Source: a virus
Strand: one strand, 5' to 3'
DNA length: 20,142 bases
IMG/VR virus record: IMGVR_UViG_3300022187_000330
Coordinates: 1 to 20,142 of that record
Shown: one piece after another, positions 3,870-20,142 of the stretch
Position numbering within the stretch: the stretch's first letter is position 1
Layout: each line of letters begins with the position of its first letter
The notes under the pieces: generated by a model
Told to the model about the DNA's origin: nothing
Seen by the model: the letters and a program-made list of their open reading frames with translations, nothing else
Databases searched by the model: none
Program-made: the position numbers and the translations under genes

Positions 3870-6064
3870 TATTCTGCCTTATCTAAACTTCTAAATGATG
3901 TAGCTCCAGCTACCTTTAATGCTCTTAATCTAGGTCGTCCCTTAGTTGTCGTTAATTTAAACTGTAATCCGTAAGCTCTTCTGTTTCCGAATCTGCCCCT
4001 TAATGAGACATCTTCGTCAATAGCAAGAGGAGATCCATTAAGATCACTAATGCTGCTTAGGTCTATTATATCATCTATATTTTCTGTGATTGCCTGCAAA
4101 TCTCCATCTGAAGTATTATCTTCACTGGACTGAATATGCAAGTCAAAATTGTTCCATTTTTTCCTATCTAAAGAATTAAGATTAAACATCCTAGTAATAA
4201 CTGAAGAGGAAACTTGAGAATTAGTAACGGTACCATCTACTTGAACTATGTACAAATCCCTATCGTCAGATCTAGATTCGTACCTATGAACTCCACCGTT
4301 ACGGTTTATTGCGTACACTGACCGCTTATCTCCTTCACCAGCAACAGTTAACTCACTGTACTGCCATTCAGGGTCGTTTATGCTGTCTATAGATTCCCAT
4401 TGCTTGTTAAGAAAATTGTAAATAAGCAAAGCGTTATTAGTGGTGCTATCATCAAGTGGAACAGCTAAGTAGTACCTATTATTGAAATAAACGGACTTAG
4501 CTTTGCTTGCGTACTCCTTGTTAATTCTCTTAATAGTGCCTTCAATGGAAGCTGACAGTGGAACATCTTGTCCTCTAAGATTGTACAAATCAATAAAGTC
4601 TAGTCCATAAACTCCATTGTCGGACAAAAATATCATACTATTACCTATCTGCTGTATGCTATCCCTGGCTAAACAACCAACCTCGTTAGTAATTAACTGA
4701 GATACTGAGCTTCCTAAGTCTAAACTGTTGGCAACAATATGTACACTATTGCGATTAAAGACAACCAACTTGTCATCCGAAAAAGAATGAAAGCCTACAA
4801 TAAAATCAGCAGCACCAGCATTAAATCTAAACTGCCCGTAAATTCTATCGTAAGTATCTGCATCCAGTATATCCGAAAACAGCACTTCATCAACAATATT
4901 TCGATTAGTAATAACAGCCGATCCAGACGTTCCTGTTACATCGTACTGATACGGCACAATCAATCTACGTTGATGATACGTTCCAAATGCAGGAGCAGGA
5001 GAGTGCGTAAATCCTAGTCCAATAGAAACTGGCTGCTGAAAAACAACTCCACTAATATTGCTTTGATTAGATAATTGAACGTAAAAATCTACAGTAAAAG
5101 CAGTATCATCTCTTTCGGCTACAATAAATTGATCTCCTATTGTAAAAGTTGAAGGAGATCCTACACTTTCTATAGTAAAAGTATCCCCGACACTCAAACC
5201 GTTCATTGCTACCAAGTTAGCAAAAGTAGCAGTAGCTTTGCCATCAACAATATCAACATCATTTGGAGTAAGTTGCTTTGGTTGACTGTAGTCTCCGTTG
5301 CTAACAAGAGAAAATGTAGGAGAAGAAATATCTCCATCCCACTCCATTGCAATGTCTCCTTTACGGAAAATGTACAACTTATTAAAGGCTTGAATTACTG
5401 TGCTTCCTTCAGGAACAGTTTCTCCAGCAGGATAAGTAAGCGTTACAGTAGTAGCTCCTGAATCAGCAGTCTTAACTAGAACAGTGCTGTTAGTAGCTAC
5501 ACAAGCTACATAGGATTCAGAATCATTATTAGGATCTGAGAACTCGCAAGAAGCTTCAATAAAGTTACCAGCGGTAGCGTCTAGCTTCATGCCAGTAACA
5601 GTTAGTCCATCATCGGTAGGACTACTATCTAATCCAGTTACGGTGTAAGTAATAACGTAATCACTTATTCGGGTCGCAATAAAATTTCCATTAGGATTTA
5701 TTAACCCAGTGTAATCAAATCCACTAATGTTTACCCCAGTACCATCTATTATCCCGTGAGGATTAGTTCCAAAATCTATAGTAATAAGATCACCAACTCT
5801 AGTAAAAGAACTAACAGCAGGAATTGATTCGTACAGATAAAACGGCAATGTAAAAACGCCAGCAGTAAACGGAGATGAAAATAACTCAATACCTTTTCTT
5901 GGTTGCCACTCTCCGTTCAAATCCATACGGCCATTATTAGATTCAGTCAAAATACCTGGACGCAACTGATCTGGCCTTAACTTATTGTTAAAGCCTGTGA
6001 ACCCTTGGTCTAGATCCTCTTGAATCCGGTTATCTAAATTTCCGTATGAACTGTACCTTGCCAT
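3869..6064 (-). CDS. Tail nozzle / tail tubular protein B-like
   Basis: 731 aa, ATG start directly adjoining the previous stop. Repeated beta-strand blocks typical of the beta-propeller tail nozzles of short-tailed phages (P22 gp10, T7 gp12 type) are visible at about 415-620: a block with DDKLVVFNRNSVHIVANSLD, then MIFLSDNGVYGLDFIDLYNL, YFNNRYYLAVPLDD, NALLIYNFLNKQWESIDS and SVYAINRNGGVHRYE. The N-terminus (GNLDNRIQEDLDQGFTGFNN, with LRPDQLRPG soon after) resembles the adaptor-facing segment of such proteins. The product would plug the end of the tail and mount the fibre. It is encoded next to the fibre but 5 kb from the adaptor, an ordering that separates the two tube components. The assignment rests on fold-type motifs, not on a close match. 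Confidence 0.8.
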   Translation of the reverse strand: MARYSSYGNLDNRIQEDLDQGFTGFNNKLRPDQLRPGILTESNNGRMDLNGEWQPRKGIELFSSPFTAGVFTLPFYLYESIPAVSSFTRVGDLITIDFGTNPHGIIDGTGVNISGFDYTGLINPNGNFIATRISDYVITYTVTGLDSSPTDDGLTVTGMKLDATAGNFIEASCEFSDPNNDSESYVACVATNSTVLVKTADSGATTVTLTYPAGETVPEGSTVIQAFNKLYIFRKGDIAMEWDGDISSPTFSLVSNGDYSQPKQLTPNDVDIVDGKATATFANLVAMNGLSVGDTFTIESVGSPSTFTIGDQFIVAERDDTAFTVDFYVQLSNQSNISGVVFQQPVSIGLGFTHSPAPAFGTYHQRRLIVPYQYDVTGTSGSAVITNRNIVDEVLFSDILDADTYDRIYGQFRFNAGAADFIVGFHSFSDDKLVVFNRNSVHIVANSLDLGSSVSQLITNEVGCLARDSIQQIGNSMIFLSDNGVYGLDFIDLYNLRGQDVPLSASIEGTIKRINKEYASKAKSVYFNNRYYLAVPLDDSTTNNALLIYNFLNKQWESIDSINDPEWQYSELTVAGEGDKRSVYAINRNGGVHRYESRSDDRDLYIVQVDGTVTNSQVSSSVITRMFNLNSLDRKKWNNFDLHIQSSEDNTSDGDLQAITENIDDIIDLSSISDLNGSPLAIDEDVSLRGRFGNRRAYGLQFKLTTTKGRPRLRALKVAGATSFRSLDKAE

Positions 6065-17605: not shown

Positions 17606-19252
17606 TCAATATCCTAATCCTGAGCGTGTTGTCATCATGCTTCTAGAAAGTACGTGGTCTGGACCGTCTCCTCCATTCGCCATTCGCAAATATCGAATAA
17701 CGTCAAAGAAGTCCTTCAATGGTTCATCTGCCTTGCCAGAAGCGTTATAGTTAATTAAAGAGTCTATTAAGTTTCCGCAGTCTTGGTGAATGTAGCACCT
17801 GGGGCGATTAGCTGAATCTATAGGTACATTGGGGTTGTAGCTGAACCACTCGTCTATTGCACTAATTCCTATCTCTTCCATTCTGCCATCTGACGGAATA
17901 AAGGTCATTCCACAATCATCGAACTCAGTAAACAAGTCATCGTTATCAGAGTTCTCCTTAGCAAAGTACCTACTATCCCCTATCCGCTCGAATACTTCTA
18001 TACCAAGATCTTCCTCAATTTCTGTAAATAAGTCCACGTACCCCTGTACGTTGTACCCTATCTTCTTCGATGCAGGGCCGTAACGCCACTTAGGATCTCC
18101 GAATATCGCCCATTCTCCGTAATAATCCCTGTCAGGCCATTCTTTACGGATGTACACATCACCTTTCTCATTTACTCCTGCCCATAACGCTACGTAATTC
18201 CTGGCTCCCGCTGGGTCAACTACCTGATAACAAGTGTACCTGTGCTTGTCAGATATGTCAGGGAAGGACATCCCGTACTTGTTCGGCTCATCGTTTAAAA
18301 CATTTACCTCTGTGTTAAACAACGGCAGCAAAGAAGTCATGCTCTTTACTGGTATCCCGTAAGCACGAACAAGTATCTCTTCCTCTGGTCTGCCCCTAAG
18401 ATCCTTAGCAATACGCTCGTAACCTCCAAAGGGGTTCTCGTCCGAGTGCAGATAAACCACTGAAGCATCCCTAGATGGACTGTACTGCTTGATAGGAACG
18501 TCTTTATCTATCAAGGAACCATAACGAGTCTGTAACGTCTGTACGTCCTTTAAGTACTCTGCCACAAAGGGAGTATAGCCATCAATCGGAGTAAAGCCTA
18601 TGCCCATCTTGGCATCCCTAGTAGCTAGTCGGAACCTAAGGGTATTTACTAGCGTAGCGTCTCCAAGGTACTCGTCTAGCCAAGCCCCTATATTCAGGCC
18701 AACTGGATCAGGGAAACCGAACTCAAAACCTTCAAGGATAGTCTGGTTGTTGCTGAACTGAGTATAAGTCTTGAAATCTACACGGGTACGGGTATCAGGA
18801 AAGATAAAGCTCTTAGCAGTGAACCCGTTCTGCATACTGTAATTTATGTATCCCTCGATACTCTTAGTCTTCTTCTTGAACTCCTTGGGCATCATCTCCC
18901 ATATCGCTGCTTGCTGCACCTTAATGGAAGTATCCTCGTTCTGACTAAAGCACACTAAGTGACCATCGTTGCTCTCAGTCACTGCCTCCATGACAATCTT
19001 AGCGAACCCTGTAGTTTTACCAGATCTGTTCCCACCAAGGACCAAGCACTCGTTGTACTCCTTTAACCCTTCCTTTATACGCTCCCATCCAGGCAAGTTG
19101 AAGCCATGACGAATAGGATCGTCCTCAGATGCCTTAATCCTACTCTCGTGAGCCTTGTGTAGCTCTTTAAGAAGATTAAGGTCGTTCTCGTACAGCCAGA
19201 TAATTTCCTCTGCTGTAGGAGGAACTAGTAAAGGATGTTCAGTAAATTTAAT
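17606..19252 (-). CDS. terL: Terminase large subunit
   Basis: DNA-packaging motor ATPase and nuclease. Numbered from an ATT codon at 19252 (548 aa): Walker A GNRSGKTT at 74-81, Walker B-like AWLDE with the acidic pair at 193-194, and nuclease-type acidic residues in VVDPAG (D346), IGDSR (D426) and FFDVIRYL (D517). The open frame upstream of the first TTG (19096) encodes 52 residues including EEIIWLYENDLNLLKELHKA and DDPIRHGFN before LPGW, which is the usual N-terminus of this family, so the TTG start would truncate it. No ATG, GTG or TTG exists between the upstream stop (19267-19265) and 19096. ATT 19252 overlaps the preceding gene's stop; CTG 19195 is another option. Function is secure; the start is not. 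Confidence 0.93.
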   Translation of the reverse strand: MKFTEHPLLVPPTAEEIIWLYENDLNLLKELHKAHESRIKASEDDPIRHGFNLPGWERIKEGLKEYNECLVLGGNRSGKTTGFAKIVMEAVTESNDGHLVCFSQNEDTSIKVQQAAIWEMMPKEFKKKTKSIEGYINYSMQNGFTAKSFIFPDTRTRVDFKTYTQFSNNQTILEGFEFGFPDPVGLNIGAWLDEYLGDATLVNTLRFRLATRDAKMGIGFTPIDGYTPFVAEYLKDVQTLQTRYGSLIDKDVPIKQYSPSRDASVVYLHSDENPFGGYERIAKDLRGRPEEEILVRAYGIPVKSMTSLLPLFNTEVNVLNDEPNKYGMSFPDISDKHRYTCYQVVDPAGARNYVALWAGVNEKGDVYIRKEWPDRDYYGEWAIFGDPKWRYGPASKKIGYNVQGYVDLFTEIEEDLGIEVFERIGDSRYFAKENSDNDDLFTEFDDCGMTFIPSDGRMEEIGISAIDEWFSYNPNVPIDSANRPRCYIHQDCGNLIDSLINYNASGKADEPLKDFFDVIRYLRMANGGDGPDHVLSRSMMTTRSGLGY

Positions 19253-19466
19253 TGCTCGCCCAGTCTATTCTCTCTAGCTCTTGTAAGGACTTCTTGGCAA
19301 CTAAGGCCAATAAAATAGCTAGGTTCTCTTGGAAGTACTCTTCTTCCATCTTGTTAAAAACATCGTACTCGAAACCATTCTCCGTAACGGTAGCAACTAA
19401 AACAGTTTTCCACCCTGGAGTAATGGTATCTAAGGACTTCTGAACTAATTCAAGGTTCTGATTCAT
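19248..19466 (-). CDS. Hypothetical small protein
   Basis: 72 aa, ATG sharing a base with the preceding stop (TAATG). The sequence shows beta strands (TPGWKTVLVATVTENGFEYD) then a helix (YFQENLAILLALVAKKSLQE) and ends ERIDWASN. The stop overlaps the probable terminase start region. No family recognised. A fusion to terminase by +1 frameshifting at its end cannot be excluded but has no clear slippery site. Confidence 0.7.
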   Translation of the reverse strand: MNQNLELVQKSLDTITPGWKTVLVATVTENGFEYDVFNKMEEEYFQENLAILLALVAKKSLQELERIDWASN

Positions 19467-19720
19467 TAAATAACTCGCCTTATATCGTGCCTAATAGGGT
19501 CAGCCTTAAAAGGTTTTGTTTCAATGGTGGAGGAAGTGGGATTCGCACCCACGTCTTCAGAAGCTTGCCCCTGAGTCGAATCTATGTTTCCCCCTCTAAA
19601 TCTACTTTCGTACTTCTTGATGTCCGTGTAAAAAGGTTCCTTAGGACGGAATATCCTATTGTACCCATCGTAAAACTTATCCCAATTAGTAGTCCTGTTT
19701 CTATTGCCTTTACCGTTCAT
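19466..19720 (-). CDS. Hypothetical protein containing an embedded tmRNA-like element
   Basis: 84 aa, ATG 19720, overlapping the terminase small-subunit candidate by 11 nt; its stop shares a base with the next ATG (TAATG). The first ~40 residues (MNGKGNRNRTTNWDKFYDGY, then RIFRPKEPFYTDIKKYESRF) are basic and aromatic and look like a genuine short protein. From about residue 42 the frame crosses the tRNA-like element, giving a Ser/Thr/Gly-rich stretch of unconvincing composition (GGNIDSTQGQASEDVGANPT). It resumes as KPFKADPIRHDIRRVI. The coupled junctions at both ends suggest translation goes straight through the RNA element. No known family. Confidence 0.65.
   Translation of the reverse strand: MNGKGNRNRTTNWDKFYDGYNRIFRPKEPFYTDIKKYESRFRGGNIDSTQGQASEDVGANPTSSTIETKPFKADPIRHDIRRVI
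19525..19594 (-). ncRNA. Minimal tRNA-like domain of tmRNA (no tag region)
   Basis: A 70-nt minus-strand segment folds completely as follows. Acceptor stem GGGGGAA with TTCCTCC (7 bp, third pair G-U). D-region ACATAGATTCGAC, containing the tmRNA signature GATTCGAC. Stem TCAGGGG with CTTCTGA (7 bp, two G-U) closed by CAAG. Linker AGAC. T arm GTGGG/CCCAC with 7-base loop TGCGAAT. Then A73 and encoded CCA. The G3-U70 pair plus A73 are the known alanyl-tRNA synthetase identity elements, and tmRNA has GAC directly before its T arm. There is no anticodon arm, so it is not a tRNA. There is no tag frame or pseudoknot region, so it is not a whole tmRNA. The one deviation is G at T-loop position 55. 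Expression and charging are unproven. Confidence 0.68.
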
Positions 19721-20142
19721 CTTCTAAATCTATTACCTGAGCTTCTTTCATCTTGTTTCTAGCCCTCTCCATTAGCTCCTTGTAGTCCTCGTCAGTGTAA
19801 ACCTTCTCCTCCCTGTTAATACTTGTAGCTTCTCCCCTAGCCAACAAAGCCTCCCTAGCTGAATTAGCCTTAGCTATACTAATATCCTTAATGTCCTTAA
19901 ATGTAGGCTTAAGTTCACCTGACTCCATGTCTTCTCGTACCTTCTGTACCATGTCCTCCTCTAAGGAACTAATGTTCAAATAAGAATAAGAAGCTAACTG
20001 ACCACCAAGCTCTCTCCACTTGCCTAGATGATCCGCATAAGTAGCCAGTACCCTAACAATAGTATCCCTCTTAAATCCGTACTTGCGTACTAATTGAGTC
20101 TGAGTCTTGCCACTAGCACTCAAAAATAGTATCTTAGCAGCC
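19710..20142 (-). CDS. Terminase small subunit candidate, partial (5' end beyond window)
   Basis: The frame is open to the right edge (143 complete codons), so a TTG at 20123 is probably not the true start. The visible N-terminus, AAKILFLSASGKTQTQLVRK then YGFKRDTIVRVLAT, reads as a helix-turn-helix (helix, turn at the Gly, recognition helix KRDTIVRVL), expected for the DNA-recognition domain of a small terminase. A helical middle follows (SSLEEDMVQKVREDMESGEL) and a charged C-terminus (YTDEDYKELMERARNKMKEA, ending IDLEDER), which would suit oligomerisation and contact with the large subunit. It sits three genes before the large terminase. A different DNA-binding regulator is the alternative. 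Confidence 0.65.
   Translation of the reverse strand, partial: AAKILFLSASGKTQTQLVRKYGFKRDTIVRVLATYADHLGKWRELGGQLASYSYLNISSLEEDMVQKVREDMESGELKPTFKDIKDISIAKANSAREALLARGEATSINREEKVYTDEDYKELMERARNKMKEAQVIDLEDER

Follow-up and report, generated by a model that had tools for sequence, protein, structure and literature searches.

A tag-less tRNA-like domain of tmRNA nested in frame within a small phage gene upstream of the terminase

The window, i.e. the whole stretch of 20,142 nucleotides analysed here (positions 1 to 20,142 of the IMG/VR record IMGVR_UViG_3300022187_000330), carries on its minus strand phage structural and packaging genes, including those for a major head protein (phrog_1328) and the large terminase (17606..19096; phrog_2, E=3e-11). 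Upstream of the terminase and on the same strand lie a 72-aa ORF (19248..19466), whose ATG start overlaps the stop codon of the preceding gene as seen from the ORF list and the sequence, then that gene itself, a small ORF of 84 aa (19466..19720) with homologues in other phages, and finally a gene that is open at the window end (19710..20141). The last shows a weak, sub-threshold helix-turn-helix similarity and is conserved beside the terminase in relatives; likely, it encodes a small terminase or a regulator. Elsewhere on the minus strand, a 586-aa ORF (925-2685) with a long collagen-like Gly-x-x repeat probably specifies a tail or fibre protein.

Nested within the 84-aa ORF is a tag-less tRNA-like domain (TLD) of tmRNA, 70 nt long (19525..19594, minus strand, 5' end at 19594, CCA at 19527-19525; GGGGGAAACAUAGAUUCGACUCAGGGGCAAGCUUCUGAAGACGUGGGUGCGAAUCCCACUUCCUCCACCA), whose A73 is followed by the terminase gene 432 nt downstream. 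In cmscan it matched the tmRNA model RF00023 with E=7.4e-12 and 37.2 bits over model positions 1-374, tmRNA being the best match of its clan in Rfam. About 314 model positions are missing, corresponding to the whole mRNA-like part and the pseudoknots, and the rest is matched end to end. Together with the covariation described below, this confirms that a complete tag-less TLD, as proposed in the first-pass annotation, is real, with exact coordinates and strand.

Read from its 5' end, the element starts with the acceptor strand GGGGGAA (19588..19594), which forms 7 bp with 19529-19535, including G3-U70. A D loop without D stem follows (CAUAGAUUCGAC, A18 G19; 19575..19587), matching that of tmRNA, and then a P2-like hairpin, UCAGGGG-CAAG-CUUCUGA, of 7 bp with a CAAG tetraloop (19557..19574). 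The T arm GUGGG-UGCGAAU-CCCAC (19536..19552; 5 bp, 7-nt loop), preceded by GAC, and the acceptor 3' strand UUCCUCC with A73 and CCA (19525..19535) both fall within the RF00023 match, and GATTCGAC is present alongside these determinants. The hairpin occupies the place of the tmRNA P2 plus the entire mRNA-like part: no tag reading frame, pseudoknot or long P2 is present, 18 nt standing in their place (17-45 nt in relatives), and neither the anticodon arm nor the D stem of a tRNA is present in the window TLD. Thus far the anticipated signatures (acceptor, G3-U70, A73 and CCA, GAC, T arm, P2 stem) were all recovered, but two details differ: position 55 of the T loop UGCGAAU is G instead of U, and AUUCGAC in the D loop is preceded by AG instead of GG (A18). 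The window TLD combines a stemless tmRNA-type D loop (GGAUUCGAC type) and the T arm in an A18/G55 variant. In a scan that selected for G55 and not for A18, A18 was paired with G55 in 67/67 G55-type tmRNAs examined, mostly two-piece ones from viral contigs, and the three U55 tmRNAs seen carry G18.

The window copy scores below the Rfam gathering score of 47, which 10 of 19 TLD-bearing relatives exceed (best 54.3), and ARAGORN called neither a tRNA nor a tmRNA in the window; standard finders such as ARAGORN and the Rfam cut-off miss many such RNAs. Furthermore, the minimum-free-energy fold of the lone TLD gives no cloverleaf (z=-1.6), its D loop pairing with the T arm, owing to the partial complementarity between the D and T loops in tmRNA. 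The structural evidence is the covariance-model match and the comparative covariation, not the minimum-free-energy fold. A permuted tmRNA at 19555-19369 was also considered and rejected, as it reached only E=0.86 and its downstream half is not conserved; the downstream AATGGTTTCGA is missing from the relatives checked, with the exception of the near-identical L030.

The element is widespread among viral contigs. A first pattern scan of IMG/VR returned 28 loci, and a scan for the T arm and acceptor end returned 82 stretches, with about 80 contigs carrying the element. The 5' half was complete in all 80 loci analysed, which comprise 50 distinct sequences and 34 distinct P2 hairpins and share the D loop consensus GA[TC]T[CT]GA[CT]; among the distinct sequences, acceptor pairing was 7/7 in 44 and 6/7 in 6. 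As these scans fix the T arm, its invariance is subject to ascertainment bias and has to be judged on loci found through the terminase, where it holds too. In C75C1, the nearest named phage, the ORF ahead of the terminase is unrelated and contains no TLD.

Comparison of 26 distinct copies showed that the TLD is an RNA under selection. All seven P2 pairs vary on both sides with pairing kept, 95.5% of P2 cells being standard pairs, and double changes numbered 65 vs 22 in shuffles (score 0.948 vs 0.25); upon any slide of the helix all measures collapsed, with a covariation score of at most 0.2. Several P2 types occur (UCAG.., GAAAGC.., GGAAGAGG.., GUUCGC.., AUUAUCC.. and a long 45-nt form), most of them well paired, and they are interspersed on the terminase tree. 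From this distribution, part of the P2 variation is block swapping by recombination among close relatives, and the double changes hence represent fewer events than cells. G3-U70, A73 and the GAC-T arm were kept in 26/26 copies. Moreover, in the same nine phages the synonymous divergence of 0.45 and 0.62 in the flanks of the TLD drops to 0.00 across the acceptor/D part and 0.08 across the T/acceptor part. Compensatory changes among related phages, for which the first-pass annotation had suggested to look in acceptor, P2 and T stems, were thus found in P2, acceptor and T arms being almost frozen. A captured relic, or a chance resemblance within coding sequence, is hardly credible in view of these data: the window copy does lie under the Rfam cut-off and its single-sequence folding is unremarkable, but an E value of 7e-12 and the recurrence in about 80 contigs speak against it, and P2 covariation and frozen synonymous sites refute it.

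The protein encoded around the TLD is constrained as well. The conserved parts of the ORF, N-terminal (19595-19720) and C-terminal (about 19466-19524), flank the TLD and have dN/dS values of 0.17 and 0.09, pointing to purifying selection, and the frame through the TLD is open in 67/67 loci of the window's phage group, with TLD lengths of 70, 73 and 97 and indels in threes, whereas it is closed in 4/6 loci of a group with phrog_9 terminases. Hence, the proposed overlap of protein and RNA constraints within a translated frame was borne out. In-frame insertions have a hot spot in the TLD-bearing gene. Besides the TLD, an 11-codon stretch, a tRNA-Thr and a cysteine-rich stretch of some 60 residues were seen in this ORF, all keeping the frame; the last directly follows the TLD (CTICGLNYCDSPCPGPTEDGWEYE) in L004 (5607-5794) and occurs also in L148, L171 and L187. 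Relatives that keep the protein but lose the stems without compensation had been named in advance as evidence against a functional RNA. Six relatives without TLD (L042, L043, L047-L050) indeed retain the ORF, with terminases about 95% identical, but these are losses of the whole element, and the remaining copies keep their stems by compensation. Among those checked, short GATTC-like remnants are retained in L042 and L049, and none were seen in L043 and L047. The terminase tree fits an ancestral TLD with at least three losses, and the element is dispensable, as close relatives have lost it that often.

The tie to the packaging operon is strict. In 75/75 testable loci, i.e. all those extending far enough from the TLD, the TLD lies 8-1072 nt upstream of the large terminase on the same strand, and this is true of three phage groups with terminases that BLASTP does not meaningfully relate to one another. 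One contig, L014, combines the window-type ORF and TLD with a terminase sharing 99.4% identity with its counterpart in L160, a contig with another TLD type, and is, judging from these sequences, a recombinant. Beside this neighbourhood, we noted that about 300 nt upstream of the TLD are strongly conserved in several contigs (L005 85-420, L009, L011, L013 and L023), following a TATAAC promoter-like box and in several cases near the contig end, possibly a cos or late-promoter region.

Such linkage raises the question of whether the element acts in cis on the packaging operon: the tRNA-like fold might be an RNase P/tRNase cleavage site, or a recognition site for SmpB/EF-Tu, that separates or times terminase expression, and since ORF translation and TLD excision would be mutually exclusive, the arrangement could work as a switch. 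The occurrence of one element before dissimilar terminases in three groups, its in-frame position throughout the window's group and the stop/start overlap with the next gene are all in line with this proposal. On the other hand, the frozen D loop, G3-U70 and A18:G55 exceed what a cleavage site needs, the operon is unchanged in relatives without TLD, and tag-less TLDs elsewhere sit in tRNA arrays or by other genes. We therefore regard a role in cis as conceivable, if on balance rather improbable.

An attachment site (attP) matching a host ssrA gene was a further suggestion of the first-pass annotation. tmRNA genes are common integration sites (PMC11915505) and the arms are conserved at the DNA level, but among 25 contigs of up to 44.8 kb no tyrosine integrase (PF00589) was found, the search being confined to that family; besides, both TLD halves are present and P2 has been replaced many times. 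When a genome collection was scanned with the 20-nt T-arm block, 36 stretches were returned, tmRNA and tRNA genes for the most part, and among the matches listed none had the UUCCUCC acceptor. The same 25 contigs contained neither a phage SmpB nor a second full tmRNA. With no tyrosine integrase, SmpB or second tmRNA found in these contigs, a relic is unlikely and an attachment site very improbable, and the latter suggestion was abandoned.

Tag-less TLDs also occur in the company of tRNA genes. In five contigs (L058, L064, L065, L067, L119), a tRNA-Thr(UGU) begins no more than three bases after the TLD, one ORF covering the two, and these TLDs have no encoded CCA, as expected of a gene processed by the tRNA pathway. 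Tag-less TLDs of other sequence, 81-82 nt long and scoring 40-76 bits, were found in L016, L017, L021, L026 and L027, those of L026 and L027 inside arrays of 24 and 20 tRNA genes, respectively. Likewise, the Microbacterium phages Vitas and Franklin22 contain unannotated 91-nt tag-less forms (L253 540-630 and L252 549-639) beside tRNA genes. Several unrelated forms exist, and therefore tag-less TLDs arose or were captured more than once. Two of these contigs have further features: L017 contains a pistol ribozyme (5916-6012, minus strand; RF02679, 50.7 bits, above the cut-off), and the TLD-holding array of L026 a tRNA-Sec-like match (3962-4043, plus strand; 43.4 bits, just below the cut-off).

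What could such a RNA do? Of the functions proposed at first, competition with host ribosome rescue appears to be the best reading, with a precedent in an RNA similar to that of mycobacteriophage DS6A. Specifically, the 70-nt element may be a functional TLD-only tmRNA gene whose processed product acts in trans as a decoy of host tmRNA-SmpB, a proposal to which we give an even chance. As we infer it, the TLD would be transcribed as part of the late terminase operon and freed from the mRNA by host tRNA enzymes, with RNase P acting at the 5' end, trimming at the 3' end and the CCA being encoded or added. The RNA would then fold into acceptor, T arm, D loop and P2 stub, retaining the surfaces for AlaRS (G3-U70), EF-Tu and SmpB but no tag frame and no pseudoknots, and it is from this combination that a decoy action follows. 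It would sequester SmpB and, if charged, might enter stalled ribosomes while offering no message on which to resume, so that host trans-translation would be damped late in infection.

The specific tmRNA match without mRNA part, the P2 covariation, the frozen synonymous sites, the kept G3-U70, A73 and GAC-T arm, the tandems with tRNA-Thr(UGU) and the unrelated tag-less TLDs of other contigs argue for this decoy, as do published data. PMC4131195 and PMC11915505, which cite Mao et al. 2009, report a TLD-only tmRNA from DS6A and strong inhibition of tmRNA by a molecule of similar make, whether chargeable or not, perhaps by titration of SmpB. By cryo-EM, the TLD D loop touches SmpB, and the third-pair G-U is the AlaRS signal (PMC8363625); both are kept in the window family, which together with the DS6A precedent leads us to favour the decoy. 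Against it, excision would cut the mRNA of the surrounding gene, and a phage would not obviously profit from a block of rescue, as lambda immP22 needs tmRNA to grow (PMC2862035). Furthermore, the strict terminase linkage is unexplained by a decoy alone and keeps a role in cis alive.

That phages can need rescue (PMC2862035) would also suit the opposite function, a stripped-down but working rescue RNA, in which the charged TLD with host SmpB takes over the stalled peptide and ribosomes are released untagged with the help of another host factor. The charging determinants are retained in all 26 copies, and tag-less mitochondrial tmRNAs, kept with SmpB, were argued to help with incomplete mRNAs (PMC11915505). 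However, having neither a resume codon nor a stop codon, such an RNA could not let the ribosome terminate, the 25 contigs encode no SmpB of their own, and the similar RNA described in PMC4131195 inhibits tmRNA rather than helps it. This function thus seems quite unlikely to us. Finally, decoy and cis element might be joined, one DNA stretch holding two codes, a protein when ribosomes pass and an excised tmRNA decoy otherwise, so that excision, inhibition of rescue and terminase expression would be coupled as a switch late in infection, the cassette having reached the same pre-terminase spot in unrelated phages by recombination; we consider this unlikely.

To date, several RNAs resembling this element have been described. 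The TLD-only tmRNA of DS6A is also phage-encoded, consists of little beyond the TLD and has no tag. It is described as a single mycobacteriophage case (PMC4131195, PMC11915505), whereas here a separate sequence family occurs in many marine phage contigs, is of the A18:G55 type, is fixed beside the terminase, often lies in frame inside a protein gene and is sometimes in tandem with tRNA-Thr. Thus, the kind is known, and its widespread, terminase-linked, protein-overlapping form appears to be new, since we did not find this family, its abundance, its pre-terminase place, its in-frame nesting or its tRNA tandem in the open-licence PMC literature. A second relative, known from marine phages and alphaproteobacteria, is the two-piece (permuted) tmRNA (RF04321; PMC9004378), in which the T-arm block GACGTGGGTGCRANTCCCAC is identical and the A18:G55 pair common; the window T arm recurs identically in other viral contigs, as part of full two-piece tmRNAs. 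In contrast to these, the window TLD is one continuous RNA in normal order, with no tag piece and no intervening segment. Full two-piece tmRNAs are present in many viral contigs among L110-L213; their tags include ANESYALAA, GEGNFALAA and ANDNYAPFDFALAA, and some differ rather from the usual ones (DNHIDYRMAA). Tag-less forms are further known from jakobid mitochondria and, at about 65 bp, from plastids (PMC11915505), but these are organellar, work with nuclear SmpB, and are neither phage-borne nor nested within coding sequence. Processing is presumably shared with phage tRNA gene clusters, and some TLDs adjoin tRNA genes, yet the TLD has neither anticodon arm nor D stem. The family offers a natural minimal TLD for testing the requirements of SmpB and AlaRS. 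It also illustrates clearly how a gene for a structured RNA, in some phages accompanied by a tRNA gene, can lie in frame within a protein gene, where the constraints on RNA and protein can both be measured. With it, what was the single oddity of DS6A becomes a class of phage RNA that is widespread, under selection, tied to the DNA-packaging operon and, as we propose, aimed at ribosome rescue.
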